Shown piece after piece: positions 6,094 to 61,877 of a stretch of DNA of 64,000 nt. A model generated the notes under the pieces. It did not search any database, was not told the origin of the DNA, and saw nothing but the letters and a program-made list of their open reading frames with translations. A program made the position numbers and the translations under genes. The DNA comes from Leptotrichia shahii. Lineage in GTDB: Bacteria > Fusobacteriota > Fusobacteriia > Fusobacteriales > Leptotrichiaceae. The stretch lies in assembly GCF_008327825.1 (NCBI RefSeq), contig NZ_AP019827.1, positions 1,612,001-1,676,000 on the forward strand, written 5' to 3'. Within the stretch, counting starts at the first letter, position 1. Every line of letters begins with the position of its first letter.

Positions 6094-6115
6094 ACAAGGG
6101 GTTAAGACCTCTTGT
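6094..6115. repeat. R1 core palindrome
   Basis: ACAAGGGGTTAAGACCTCTTGT is an almost perfect 22-bp palindrome and a variant of the core found at 9505, 20633, 38833, 43217 and 48032. A possible left end, CTGTTTGATAACTATG at about 5949, matches the outer end of complete R1 copies, but R3 copy 1 lies between them, so this looks composite. Confidence 0.55.
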
Positions 6116-9496: not shown

Positions 9497-9530
9497 TGTG
9501 TACACAAGGGGTTAAAACCCCTTGCTAAAT
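9497..9530. terminator. R1 palindrome acting as bidirectional terminator
   Basis: CAAGGGGTTAAAACCCCTTG at 9505-9524 is a perfect 8-bp stem, flanked by a second weaker inverted repeat (AAGTTTTG and CAAAAACT). It lies exactly between convergent cbiB and speB, so it probably ends both transcripts. The core belongs to repeat family R1. Confidence 0.65.
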
Positions 9531-20452: not shown

Positions 20453-20662
20453 ATGAAAGACTTAACAAAAGGAAATGAACCAAAAACTATAATTTATTTT
20501 TCTTTACCAATTTTAATAGGAAATTTATTTCAGCAGATTTATAATATTTCAGACACAACCATTGTAGGAAATTTTTTAGGAAAGGAAAGCCTTGTGAATG
20601 ATTTTTATAGGAAATCCTATTTTTATTTAAAAACAAGGGGTTTTGAACTGACCCCTTGTTAA
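20453..20662 (+). pseudogene. MATE efflux pump remnant, 5' end only
   Basis: The first ~46 residues, MKDLTKGNEPKTIIYFSLPI then LIGNLFQQIYNISDTTIVGN and FLGKESL, are a clear N-terminus of a MATE-family multidrug/Na+ antiporter (normally ~450 aa). Homology stops at about 20593, where the sequence becomes an R1-like repeat and soon a stop. The rest of the gene is not in the window. It keeps a start and a GAGAG ribosome binding site. An element insertion followed by deletion explains the structure. Confidence 0.8.
20633..20659. repeat. R1 core palindrome
   Basis: ACAAGGGG, an 11-nt spacer and CCCCTTGT, followed by TAAATCG as in other R1 copies. It directly follows the point where the MATE gene is broken and may terminate the J-like operon arriving from the other side. 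Confidence 0.6.
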
Positions 20663-27943: not shown

Positions 27944-28437
27944 CCTCAATCTCCTGTCTTATTTAATTTTTTTATTTTATATTTTTTTAAAAAATATTAT
28001 ATTAATATATATATGCCATTTATTATTCTTAAAAAATACTTAGCAATATTGTAACTAAACTTTCCATAATTTTTATTTTGGATCTACCAATAATTAACTT
28101 TATTTATTTTATTCTTTTAAAAAAAATTAATAATAAATGCTCATTTAAAAAAATCGAAATGTAGTAATTTTTATTACTATTTATCAATGTTTTCGACTTT
28201 ATTTTATAACCTTTTGATATTTCTTTATGATATTTCAATTTAACTTTTTTAATTTCAGCAAAACCAAATATTCATTTTCTTCGATTTTTATCGAATTATT
28301 CACACAATTTGTCGTATAACTTTTAACAGCATTCTTTTTAGATTTGAATTTTTGTTAAAAAATTCTTAATAATTTCAACATTTAAATGAAAAATAATACT
28401 ACATAAAAATAATCTAAAATTTATACAATTATCTTTT
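27944..28437. other. AT-rich intergenic region upstream of the Hsp70 block
   Basis: Nearly 500 bp without a convincing gene. It must hold the promoter for the LprI-GrpE-Hsp70 unit and the 3' end of the ABC transporter unit. I see no CIRCE-type inverted repeat (TTAGCACTC-N9-GAGTGCTAA), so heat-shock control by HrcA is not supported. Confidence 0.4.
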
Positions 28438-32127: not shown

Positions 32128-32432
32128 CTTATTCCCTCCTATGCTTAAGTTATTTGTAAAAGTCTAAAATCTCCAATAATTACAATACTTTTACACTTGT
32201 AATTCTTACTATTTTTCTCTGACATTTTTGATATAAAATTTTAATATTTCAGGTTAAAATACTGTATTTTTTGAGTTTTTATATTATTACTTTTACAATC
32301 ACCTATTATACTATTTTAGACTTTAATAGTATACCCTATTTTTTTTCAAAATCAATATGTACTTACAATTTTTTTCATCTAAATATTTTAATAACAAAGT
32401 AATTTAAATAAAATATTATTTTATATCATTTT
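32128..32432. other. intergenic region, no gene seen
   Basis: AT-rich leader region of the dehydrogenase gene. No convincing frame, hairpin or promoter pair identified. Confidence 0.3.
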
Positions 32433-32508
32433 CTAATAAGAGGTCTTGATCCCTTGCTAAACAGCATGTAATTTATAATAAATCTGCTATTTAAATGGGA
32501 AATAGTAT
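32433..32508. repeat. R3-type element with degenerate R1 core
   Basis: Contains AAGAGGTCTTGATCCCTTGC (a worn R1 core) then CTATTTAAATGGGAAATAGTAT, the same right end as R3 copy 1. The segment also aligns with 42085-42151 (CTTGCTAAA...GGGAAxTAGTAT). The left end is not clear. Confidence 0.4.
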
Positions 32509-32993: not shown

Positions 32994-33097
32994 TATGCTT
33001 GAACCAATTTAAAATTGAACTATTAAAAATTATACAAACTTAAGGTTTGAGTAAATAGTTATAGCTTTTGAATTTGGTTTTAGATCAGTTTACTATA
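32994..33097 (+). repeat. R2 element, full copy
   Basis: About 104 bp from TATGCTTGAACCAATTTAAA to TTAGATCAGTTTACTATA; internal AAATTATACAAACTTAAGG and GTTTGAGTAAATAGTTATAG match the copies at 36214 (inverted) and 61656. The two ends form an imperfect inverted repeat of the type TATAxTxAAACxxxTTTAAAA. Confidence 0.65.
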
Positions 33098-33101
33098 GCA
33101 C

Positions 33102-33150
33102 AAAAAAATATGCCATTCTCTTATAGTTAAAACTACTAGTGTCTTGGCAT
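33102..33150 (-). terminator. terminator of trkH
   Basis: On the minus strand ATGCCA and TGGCAT enclose a branched loop, followed by ATTTTTTTG. 27 bp after the trkH stop. Confidence 0.6.
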
Positions 33151-36213: not shown

Positions 36214-36319
36214 CATAGTAAAACTGATTTAAAGCCAAACTCAAAAGCTATAACTATTTTACTCAAACCTTAAGTTTATATAATTTTTTATAGCTCAATT
36301 TTAAACGGATTCAAATATA
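36214..36319 (-). repeat. R2 element, full copy overlapping the hemB 3' end
   Basis: Inverted relative to the copy at 32994: TAGTAAAACTGATTTAAAGC, CAAACTCAAAAGCTATAACT, ACTCAAACCTTAAGTTTATA and CAATTTTAAACGGATTCAAA. The right end covers the last codons and stop of hemB (TGA at 36313-36311). Confidence 0.65.
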
Positions 36320-38792: not shown

Positions 38793-38881
38793 GATAACCA
38801 TACAAACTTAGAATTTAATAAAATATCCTGAGGCAAGGGGTCTTGACTCCTTGTAGAAATAAAAAAAATTAGGTTATCGAA
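38793..38881. repeat. R1 element, nearly full copy
   Basis: GATAACCATACAAACTTAGA...core GCAAGGGGTCTTGACTCCTTGT (38833-38854)...GGTTATCGAAT. Order and spacing match the complete copy at 47982. Lies between cobS and cobC, 28 bp ahead of the cobC start. Confidence 0.65.
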
Positions 38882-40514: not shown

Positions 40515-40631
40515 TTATTATTCCTCTATTCGTAATTTTATTATTTAGAAATGCTAACAATAAGTATTTTTCAACAAGGTATCCACCCCCTTGCCATAAA
40601 AAAATAAATAAAATATATTTTCTATTTTTCA

Positions 40632-40686
40632 AAATTATAAGTTTATGTAATTTTTAATAATTCAATTTTAAATATGTTTGGGTATA
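40632..40686 (-). repeat. R2 element, partial copy overlapping the hemL 3' end
   Basis: AAAATTATAAGTTTATGTAA, TTTTTAATAATTCAATTTTA and AATATGTTTGGGTATA correspond to the R2 right half. It contains the last six codons and stop of hemL. Confidence 0.55.
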
Positions 40687-41987
40687 GTTCCAGACTTTTT
40701 AGCAATTTTTTCAAAAGTTTTTTCCATACCAGTCAATATTTTTTCCATATCTTCATCACTATGAACATAAGATACAAAATGTGCTTCATATTTTGAAGGT
40801 GGCACAATTATACCATTTTCCAGCATTGTATCAAAATATATGCTATAAAATTCACTATCTGTATTCATTGCATCTTCCAAAGTTTTTACTTTTTCCTTTG
40901 CAAAAAATATTGTGAAAAGGCTTCCAAAATAATTTACAGTTGCTGGAACATTGTATTTTTTTATTAATTCATTAATTTTATTTACTAGATTTTCTGTTTT
41001 TTTATTTATATTTTCATAAATTTCAGGATTTTCCTTTAAAATTGAAATAGTTTCTATTCCAGCTGCAACCGAAATCGGATTTCCAGAAAGTGTTCCAGCG
41101 TGATAAACATTCCCAACAGGCGAAATCAAGTCCATAATCTCTTTTTTCCCTCCAAAGCCACCAACTGGATAACCACCACCAATAATTTTACCTAAAATAG
41201 TCAAATCAGGTATAATTCCAAATATTTTTTGAACTCCTCCCAATGAAACTCTAAATCCTGAAATTACCTCATCAAAAATTAAAACAATATTTTCCTTTCG
41301 TATAATTTCACGCACTTTTTCCAAGTACTCCATTTCTGTTTCAATAAGCCCCATATTTGCTGGAATTGGCTCAATAATCACACAGGCAATATCCTTCTCA
41401 CTTTCCAAAGTTTCCTTCAATTTTTCAAAATCCCCAAAAGGCAATGTTATCGTGTCTTTCACAACTCCTTCAGTAATTCCATTACTATCCTGATGTTCAA
41501 AAGTCAAAAGCCCTGAACCAGCTTTAACTAATAGCGAATCTGAATGTCCATGGTAACATCCTTCAAACTTTATAATCTTATTTTTCCCAGTAAATGCACG
41601 AGCAACTCTCACACTAGCCATTGCCGCTTCTGTCCCCGAAGTAGTCAATCTCAATTTTTCAATTGATGGAAAACAACTTTTTACAAGCTCTGCCAATTCC
41701 ACTTCTTTTTTCGTAGGCAGTCCAAACGAGGTTCCCTTTTCAAGCTCTCTTTTCACGGCTTCCAAAACTTTCGGATAATTATGTCCTAGAATCATCGGTC
41801 CCCAAGACCCAATCATATCCACATACTCATTTTCATCTTCATCGTAAAGTTTACTTCCACTTCCTCTTTTAATAAAAATTGGATACTCCTTATCAACAGA
41901 CTGAAATGCCCTAACTGGACTATTTACTCCGCCTGGTATTGATTTTTTCGCTTTTTCATAAATTTTTTTTGAATTATCTGTATTCAT
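40668..41987 (-). CDS. hemL: glutamate-1-semialdehyde 2,1-aminomutase
   Basis: PLP enzyme of the C5 pathway making 5-aminolevulinate. 439 aa. Starts KKSIPGGVNSPVRAFQSV; shows TTSGTEAAMASVRVARAFTG, CYHGHSDSLLVKAGSG, FDEVISGFRVSLGG and the PLP lysine in LGKIIGGGYPVGGFGGK. The final TIPKHI-stop is encoded by an R2 repeat end instead of the usual C-terminus. hemA and gltX are not in the window. Confidence 0.95.
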   Translation of the reverse strand: MNTDNSKKIYEKAKKSIPGGVNSPVRAFQSVDKEYPIFIKRGSGSKLYDEDENEYVDMIGSWGPMILGHNYPKVLEAVKRELEKGTSFGLPTKKEVELAELVKSCFPSIEKLRLTTSGTEAAMASVRVARAFTGKNKIIKFEGCYHGHSDSLLVKAGSGLLTFEHQDSNGITEGVVKDTITLPFGDFEKLKETLESEKDIACVIIEPIPANMGLIETEMEYLEKVREIIRKENIVLIFDEVISGFRVSLGGVQKIFGIIPDLTILGKIIGGGYPVGGFGGKKEIMDLISPVGNVYHAGTLSGNPISVAAGIETISILKENPEIYENINKKTENLVNKINELIKKYNVPATVNYFGSLFTIFFAKEKVKTLEDAMNTDSEFYSIYFDTMLENGIIVPPSKYEAHFVSYVHSDEDMEKILTGMEKTFEKIAKKSGTIPKHI

Positions 41988-43122: not shown

Positions 43123-43188
43123 ACCAAATCTCCAATATTTTTTATAATTATCTAAATTATAGCAAAATTTTCAAAACTTTATTATATC

Positions 43189-43270
43189 TGTTCGATAACT
43201 TAATTTTTTTATTTAACAAGGGGTCAAGACCCCTTGCTTCAGAACGTTTGTTTTATTAAATTTTAAATAA
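43189..43270 (-). repeat. R1 element, inverted copy
   Basis: Outer end TGTTCGATAAC at 43189-43199, core CAAGGGGTCAAGACCCCTTG at 43217-43236 (perfect palindrome), then CTTCAGAACGTTTGTTTTATTAAATTTTAAA, matching the reverse complement of the copy at 47982. The far end is degraded. Lies between the aldolase and DeoR genes. Confidence 0.65.
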
Positions 43271-43337
43271 ATATAATTTCTGAGCAAGTCTATTAATTAT
43301 GCCAGAACTAAGTTTTGAAAAGTTCAAGAAGTCAAAA

Positions 43338-47908: not shown

Positions 47909-47949
47909 ATACAAGGAGCTAGTGATTTCAGCTTCTTGTATTTTTTTTT
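47909..47949 (+). terminator. strong terminator of the glycyl radical enzyme operon
   Basis: ATACAAGGAGCT, 9-nt loop, AGCTTCTTGTAT (one G-T pair) followed by nine T. Confidence 0.92.
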
Positions 47950-47981
47950 ACATTGACGAATTATTAGTTTTATAAGAGACC

Positions 47982-48063
47982 TGTTCGATAACTATACAAA
48001 CTTAGAATTTAATAAAATAAATATCTTGAAGCAAGGGGTCTTGACCCCTTGTATAATCGAACA
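47982..48063 (+). repeat. R1 element, complete 82-bp copy
   Basis: Ends TGTTCGATAAC and TAATCGAACA are inverted repeats (8 bp perfect). Internal ATACAAACTTAGAATTTAAT is shared with 38793; the core CAAGGGGTC-TT-GACCCCTTG (48032-48051) is perfect. Reference copy of the family. An IS630-type transposase remnant begins ~50 bp downstream. Confidence 0.75.
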
Positions 48064-48115
48064 TATCTAATATAAATATCTATCTATAAGTACTTGTTTA
48101 AAAAAGAAAGAAAAA

Positions 48116-48273
48116 AAGTTTATACATCTATTTAAAAAATTAAAGAAAAATATGGTAATAGTAATAGATAATGCCAGATTTTATAGAAAAAGGGTATTAG
48201 AAAAAACATAGCCCATAATTTTAATATACTCGAAGAGGCAGTCATCTCTGATTTATTTGATAATTTTAAATAG
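48116..48273 (+). pseudogene. IS630-family transposase remnant
   Basis: One frame reads FIHLFKKLKKNMVIVIDNAR then FYRKRVLEKT and a stop: the catalytic 'DNARxH' region of IS630/Tc1-type transposases. Directly after, in another frame, HNFNILEEAVISDLFDNFK and a stop is the usual C-terminal end of such transposases. The 'YLPPYSPELNPIE' segment between them is deleted. Not functional. Confidence 0.75.
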
Positions 48274-48309
48274 GTTTAACTATACAAAAAAATTTTAATT
48301 TCAATAAAT

Positions 48310-58692: not shown

Positions 58693-58890
58693 TTTTCCTC
58701 CTAAAATAAAACATATATTTTCTAGTTCCACTTATATTATAATAATACTCTATTTTCTAAAAAAACTCAAGTTTTTTTTTTCACTTTTTAATTTTAATTT
58801 ATATTTTCATAACAAAGTTTGTCTCAAAAACTAAAAAAATCTAAAATTTACAAATACATTTAATATATTCCTGTTTCATTTCATTTGTGT
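58693..58890. other. adhE upstream region
   Basis: AT-rich leader. A TATAAT at 58741-58736 on the minus strand is a likely -10; no good -35 at 16-18 bp. Confidence 0.35.
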
Positions 58891-59010
58891 TTAACCACCT
58901 TTTTTTATCCATTCCTCAAATTGCTTCAAGAACTTCTCTTCTTCTTCAAATGTCATATTTTTTGTGATTTTCACCTTTTGACCTACTGATTTAAAAACAT
59001 GCGCATCCGT
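58891..59010 (-). pseudogene. short coding remnant, possibly transposase N-terminal piece
   Basis: Open frame without a start: AHVFKSVGQKVKITKNMTFE then EEEKFLKQFEEWIKKGG and a stop. The 'MTFEEEExFLxQF' run resembles a helix found early in some IS630 transposases. Upstream frames are closed by stops. Recognition is weak. Confidence 0.35.
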
Positions 59011-59312
59011 TTACTCACAACTTTTTTATGCACATCTAAACAACTATTTCATTATTCCTTATATTCTATTGGTTTGGCTTAATTAGCATTACGTGCTTTT
59101 CAGCAAAATTGTTCCTATCCCTGTAGACTTTCTCAATCCCATTTCCTATTCAAAAATTAATACTAAAAAATATTTTTATATTATGTTAAAATTCTAATAT
59201 CAATTTATTTTTTTAATAAAATTAGAATTTAAATAGTAGAATAAATACTATCAAATCTAGTTTTATTATAAATATTAATTGGAAATTTATTAAATAATAA
59301 AAGGAGAAATTA

Positions 59313-61592: not shown

Positions 61593-61655
61593 ATTTAATT
61601 CTCTCCTGTATTATTTTTAGCAAATGCTAAAATCTTAAGTTTCTATTATTCTAAT

Positions 61656-61762
61656 ATATACTCAAACCTATTTAAAATTAAACTACTAAAAATTATATAA
61701 ATTTAGGGTTTGAGTAAAATAGTCATAACTTTTGAGTTTGGTTTTAAAGCAGTTTTACTATA
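61656..61762 (+). repeat. R2 element, full copy
   Basis: TATACTCAAACCTATTTAAA at the left, AAATTATATAAATTTAGGG and TTTGAGTAAAATAGTCATAA inside, and GTTTTAAAGCAGTTTTACTATA at the right. The two ends are imperfect inverted repeats and the element is bounded by TA. Confidence 0.68.
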
Positions 61763-61877
61763 AAAACTATATCAATTTTACTATAATATATCACAAATTC
61801 CAAAAAATAAAAAGAGAGCAAACTGGAAATAATAAATTTCCAATTAACCCTCCAAAAGAATATCTTTTAATATTTTA

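Follow-up and report, generated by a model that had tools for sequence, protein, structure and literature searches.

An internally deleted MITE of Leptotrichia and a palindromic core common to several families of small elements

The repeat at positions 47982–48063 is an internally deleted copy of a MITE of the genus Leptotrichia (family A), a family that duplicates 3 bp of its target (AWT). The palindrome at its centre is a module of its own, common to at least two other MITE-like families (B and C), to mixed elements and to isolated sites. The repeat lies in a stretch of 64,000 bp (the window; G000, C1:1612001-1676000) in the 2.16-Mb genome of Leptotrichia shahii. Our overall reading, which we consider probable, is that an internally deleted family A MITE with IS5-type ends was moved in trans, and that its core is a separate REP-like module carried by several MITEs.

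An alignment of the genome copies gives the family A unit as TAGACC-TGTTCGATAAC...CAAGGGGTCTTGACCCCTTG-TATAGATAAAAAAACTTAG-GTTATCGAACA-TATCTA. The unit is about 110 bp long and non-coding, and it is bounded by the short inverted repeats that characterise a MITE (AGACCTGTTCGATAAC / GTTATCGAACATATCT), the two ends being slightly unlike (AGACC vs AGATA). The sequences named in the preliminary description are all present, 47982–48063 reading TGTTCGATAAC...CAAGGGGTCTTGACCCCTTG...ATCGAACA; the idea that these 82 bp form a complete unit was wrong, as the genome-wide unit has about 110 bp and the region between TATA and ATCGAACA is missing here. A search of the window for the core with up to 3 mismatches gave six matches (6095, 9505, 32437, 38834, 43217, 48032), while 100 shuffles gave none. 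The features of the window are as follows.

47977–48068, plus strand: family A MITE, internally deleted (92 bp of the 110-bp unit), including the 82-bp stretch (copy alignment)
48032–48051, no strand: palindromic core CAAGGGGTC-TT-GACCCCTTG (pattern search, fold)
38793–38881, plus strand: family A copy with worn ends, between a CobS-like gene and a His_Phos_1 gene (consensus match)
43183–43292, minus strand: inverted copy of family A with no counterpart at this place in L. hongkongensis (consensus match)
32410–32507, plus strand: worn family B copy, its right half recognised by score and its left half by eye
6095–6114, no strand: core whose halves were assigned to none of the three families, with a B-like end immediately upstream (by eye)
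9505–9524, no strand: core likewise without an assigned half
20634–20658, no strand: core-like palindrome with a longer loop
40575–40593, no strand: worn core-like palindrome, CAAGG...CCTTG
47911–47949, plus strand: hairpin plus T-run resembling a terminator, belonging to the pyruvate formate lyase-like gene and also kept by two relatives without the MITE

The further copies proposed at 38793 and, inverted, at 43189 thus belong to family A, and the lone cores at 6095 and 9505 stand, that at 20633 being a longer-looped version. Of the two sites described as worn, the one at 40574 is indeed a worn core-like palindrome, and the core near 32439 has to be reassigned to the worn family B copy. Another dispersed repeat of about 105–135 bp, which is not A, B or C and also occurs in L. 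hongkongensis, was seen at 32994–33103, 36215–36319, 61654–61787 and perhaps 40620–40690.

Family A is abundant in this genome and widespread in the genus. With the 112-bp consensus as query, at least 40 places reach E < 1e-20, a lower bound as 40 of 128 candidates were scored, and ten of these places show 96–100% identity over almost the full length. Matches were found in all 12 other genus genomes searched (at least 4–16 in each, several of them partial or weak), and a full-length match outside the genus is present in a sister genus (G022). At E 0.01, 34 of 60 relatives gave family A matches, those from outside the genus being mostly marginal. Three matches to the family A end were obtained in viral contigs; the flagged site had no match on plasmids, and the exact pattern TGTTCGATTATACAAGGGGTC had none among the genome contigs.

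The view that these repeats form a palindromic mobile family is borne out by the many copies, by ends identical to those of insertion sequences in relatives and by an empty site with a 3-bp duplication. The empty site was found in G006, where a perfect family A copy lies inside an IS200-type repeat of which other copies are uninterrupted: what sets the filled form apart from the empty one (GAAAAG-AAT-AAAATT, in L308 and L311) is the element together with a 3-bp duplication, AAT. Among the 42 family A copies with both ends matching, the flanking 3-mers (AWT) are equal in 31, compared with 14.5 after shuffling of partners, a count that superseded an earlier assignment of a 2-bp TA duplication. 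The 3-bp target is presumably ISL2-like (a subgroup of IS5). Family B also has an empty site in G006, corresponding to the B copy at 524748 here, and its flanking 3-mers (TNA) are equal in 14 of 20 cases (7.5 when shuffled); no clear target duplication was seen in 13 copies of family C.

Within the window, the joined flanks of the copy at 43183–43292 align with the corresponding place in L. hongkongensis (81%), where the element is absent. L. hongkongensis and oral taxon 879, both of which carry the neighbouring pyruvate formate lyase-like protein with 97% identity, likewise lack the element at the flagged place, 47982; the exact empty site is not derivable there, the alignment being too poor beyond 47947 in both relatives. 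Adjoining the flagged MITE, positions 48132–48284 hold a remnant of the 3' part of this genome's IS630 (77–79% identity).

Candidate parents of two of the families were found in relatives. The family A end is borne by IS5-type elements, about 900 bp long, in which HTH_Tnp_4 and DDE_Tnp_4 parts occupy two frames; the assignment to IS5 by NCBIfam is below the curated cut-off. The end TAGACCTGTTCGATAAC is exact at both ends of such an element in G004 and near-equal in G005 and G003. Family A thus resembles the IS5 family (DDE_Tnp_4, two reading frames) in its left end, identical over 16–17 bp, and in its right end, which is nearly equal; it differs in its length of about 110 bp, in having no transposase and in the palindrome, which is missing from the IS copy compared. 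All IS5-type copies read have a stop or bases not displayed in the transposase (DDE) frame, so that an intact parent was not seen; the interruption may reflect either a programmed frameshift or decay. Matches to DDE_Tnp_4 occur in 6 of 13 genus genomes, and a search for DDE_Tnp_4 and the IS5-type family in this genome gave 0 matches. From these sequences we infer that an IS5-type transposase moved family A in trans and was later lost here.

The ends of family B, TACTAAACCCCGTTT, were found on IS630-type elements of 1.1 kb with an IS630 transposase in G002 and G004. The two copies of IS630 in this genome were considered as a parent of A, B or C and rejected, as their ends differ, and no parent IS was found for family C. 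Past the terminal repeats the likeness between MITE and IS is weak or absent, with the exception of one B end, and the core is absent from the IS copies compared. Other traces of insertion sequences were also noted. A remnant of the IS630-type element that shares its ends with family B occupies 58858–59060 of the window (77% over 231 aligned columns), at 28150–28348 there is a remnant (83.5%) derived from the non-coding end of an element of IS200 type, and a gene for an IS200-type Y1 transposase, its open frame 138 aa long, is located about 1.5 kb to the left of the window (G000:C1:1610095-1610457).

The core is found far beyond family A. Genome-wide, 100 places match it with up to 3 mismatches, and a reversed control pattern matches none. 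Only 2 of the 100 lie within ORFs, with 17 unclear in the simple ORF caller used, so the core is an abundant extragenic palindrome in the manner of REPs. When the halves on either side of the 100 cores were scored, with thresholds set from 400 random pieces of the window, 31 cores proved to be A-A, 12 B-B, 10 C-C and 3 mixed, 22 had one recognised half and 22 had none. For the counts of T-tracts, TCA and gene context given below, the 22 cores with one half were kept in class A, B or C and the 3 mixed ones were left out. The families have unrelated ends (A, AGACCTGTTCGATAAC; B, TACTAAATCCCATTT; C, TAGGCAATTGTAAAAGT). Two firm mixed elements are joined at the core, a C-right half with an A-left half at 339908 and a B-right half with an A-left half at 1248816, and further tentative ones were recognised by eye at 1213390, 1367081 and 914895; a candidate ‘BC’ element at 196868, scored as mixed, looked doubtful by eye and was not counted as firm. 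With up to 1 mismatch, the core is present in 13 of 60 genomes, namely in 12 of 13 Leptotrichia and in the sister genus (G022), and it is missing from the remaining 47.

Several features of the core recall REPs. The trinucleotide TCA abuts it at 10 of 22 isolated cores, 7 of 19 B, 10 of 16 C and 1 of 40 A cores, where 3.8% per site is expected; the GTAG/GGAG head of REPs is absent at the cores, which have the TCA tail on one side instead. Three isolated cores have orthologous places in other genomes: 1406641 in G022, G012 and G004; 524386 in G022 and G006; and 2000420 in G002. The core at 300380, with one weak C half by score, has an orthologous place in G001. Likeness limited to the stem, with other flanks, had been named in advance as the mark of simple convergent terminators, and it is what the 22 cores without recognised halves display; yet ten of these carry the TCA tail and three are the orthologous ones just listed.

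A stretch of about 900 bp in G001 holds three perfect cores, each in frame (ARGQDPLS, ARGLDPLS and RGQDPLS, in two ORFs), around RAYT-like pieces. The locus (L291, 2492–6250) is an Eco57I/MmeI-like restriction-modification gene broken by pieces of a Y1 transposase, the order of which looks permuted by eye. These pieces match Pfam Y1_Tnp (4e-8) and, below the curated cut-offs in both cases, the NCBIfam models for REP-associated tyrosine transposase (2e-11) and IS200 (3e-7). Among 96 genomes of the order, eight have matches to this type of transposase, strong in G001 and weak in the other seven, and no RAYT-like gene was found in the genome studied here. As the only convincing RAYT-like gene among the 96 genomes is in pieces, and the genome studied here has none, the link of such a gene to the cores of this genome is indirect. 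Searches for RAYT relatives on plasmids gave no match, and the exact core with TCA was found in none of the viral contigs. IS200-type Y1 transposases were rejected as movers of the core, since none of 30 genus loci (30 of 40 matches) has a core nearby with the 3-mismatch pattern.

Taken together, the shared core, the TCA tail, the orthologous isolated cores and the in-frame RAYT-like context suggest that the core behaves like a REP-like module within several MITEs. It would be a REP-like palindrome once moved by a RAYT, a connection that we treat as a lead and not as membership. On this reading, an IS5-type transposase acting in trans would have moved family A and would afterwards have been lost from this genome, and the palindrome would have entered, or been trapped in, the MITEs in which many of its copies now reside. 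The route might have been insertion, the landing of insertion sequences beside a core followed by shrinkage, or exchange between families. No core-free relatives of family A, B or C were found, and we can therefore only infer that the core entered the MITEs.

The palindrome may instead have been a target of insertion sequences and not a passenger, IS-palindrome-IS arrangements having shrunk by deletion, independently in each of the three families, to MITEs of the form end-core-end. The accessible text of PMC1525189 describes REPs as known IS targets. Families A and B each consist of two IS-type ends meeting at the core, and one of the two IS630 copies here lies beyond a worn core of B type, at a distance of a few bases (L218, 1032–1055, by eye). 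However, a core (up to 3 mismatches) is present in only 1 of 37 IS5- and IS630-type loci, and there it lies about 290 bp from the IS630 end (L233); several deletions would also be required per family. We regard this course of events as possible, if on the whole unlikely.

We are more doubtful of a process in which one MITE acquired the core, which then passed to the others when recombination or template switching occurred at the palindrome. The mixed elements joined at the core, both the firm and the tentative ones, are what such exchange between families would produce, but they could equally have arisen by deletions between neighbouring cores. Moreover, A, B and C differ in both halves, so that a single swap would be insufficient.

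Just as doubtful, in our opinion, is a broader proposal, namely that the REP-like hairpin serves as a ready-made centre for the building of MITEs, across which the ends of unrelated DDE insertion sequences, of IS5 type, IS630 type and a third kind, have repeatedly been joined. The hairpin may favour the birth of MITEs by template switching, or may bring two ends together. If this were true, a palindrome born with a single-strand (HUH) transposase would be spreading inside double-strand (DDE) elements.

Co-opted or convergent intrinsic terminators, with the hairpin kept for the ending of transcription and the repeats being secondary, are a very improbable explanation. The core hairpin is strong (-17.5 kcal/mol, z -4.9), and the original statement that many of the palindromes lie at gene ends holds for the isolated cores, as a gene 3' end is adjacent in 20 of 22 (median 35 bp). 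It does not hold for family A: the median distance of its copies is 105 bp to gene ends and 92 bp to gene starts, so that ends are not favoured, and the copies lie in tandem, convergent and divergent gaps in the proportion 28/3/4, with 5 unclear, compared with 26/4/4 for the window's own gaps; gene context was taken from the simple ORF caller, with 17 of the 100 cores unclear. A T-tract, defined as 5 or more T among the 8 bases that follow the hairpin on one strand or the other, was found for 0 of 40 cores in family A, 1 of 19 in B and 2 of 16 in C, against a background of 26.6% at random places of the window (not intergenic ones only); the isolated cores, with 7 of 22, are at about this background rate. 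Nor is there covariation in the stem: of 66 A hairpins, 14 with gaps were dropped and the remaining 52 collapsed to 30 distinct cores, in which 226 of 270 pairs are formed, compared with 226.5 in column shuffles, and 5 double changes occur, compared with 4.2.

A terminator scan of 36–50 kb called none of the four core or worn-core sites there, but as it also missed the gene's own hairpin at 47911–47949 it is coarse and insensitive, and counts for little. This hairpin with its T-run, kept in the two element-free relatives, belongs to the gene upstream of the flagged site, and the common flanks and target duplications show mobility. The suggestion that the family was co-opted for transcription ending thus finds no support in T-tracts, gene context or covariation, and the family A core is probably not a working terminator; the position of isolated cores near gene 3' ends makes a local role possible for some of them. 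The case calls for caution, as a strong hairpin in many intergenic repeats does not by itself make a terminator.

Inverted pairs of DNA uptake sequences are known elsewhere, as in Neisseria-type terminators, but this model can be dismissed here, since 11 of the 12 occurrences of the half-site CAAGGGG in the window are in a palindrome and only one is outside, where single copies in large numbers would be expected.

The preferred reading, MITEs with IS-type ends that hold a REP-like core, relates these elements to several known systems. Like known MITEs, among which EFAR is also counted, they are short non-coding elements with terminal inverted repeats, a target duplication, an intergenic position and a stable fold; unlike them, they form three families with unrelated ends and one identical central palindrome. 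The literature searched, ISfinder and full subscription texts excepted, contained no Leptotrichia MITEs and no unrelated MITE families with one common core. For RUP, BOX/SPRITE, NEMIS and QMITE, the accessible texts of PMC10969869 and PMC3733652 describe short, non-coding elements with terminal inverted repeats, target duplication, intergenic location and a stable fold, which may cluster and insert into each other. The core is similar to REPs and RAYTs (REPtrons) as a palindrome of 20–40 bp in about 100 mostly intergenic copies with an asymmetric tail, and the cores beside RAYT-like pieces in G001 recall the flanking of RAYT genes by REPs described in the accessible text of PMC2817692. It departs from REPtrons in that the GTAG head is absent, the RAYT is in pieces and in one genome only, and many copies reside inside DDE-type MITEs. 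Palindromes in frame within coding sequence, such as ARGQDPLS and ARGLDPLS in G001, are a feature of Rickettsia palindromic elements and CGTC REPs, as far as these are treated in the accessible text of PMC3733652; here, however, they were seen in a single relative, at a single gene region next to pieces of a transposase, and have no CGTC tag.

The origin of MITEs from insertion sequences has long been an open question. The three families described here, which differ in their ends but meet at one identical palindrome, are a natural replicate of MITE birth, and because the likely parents and the core are present in some members of the genus and missing from others, the sequence of events can be reconstructed. 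A core common to three families of such tiny elements in Leptotrichia bears on how elements of this kind are made.
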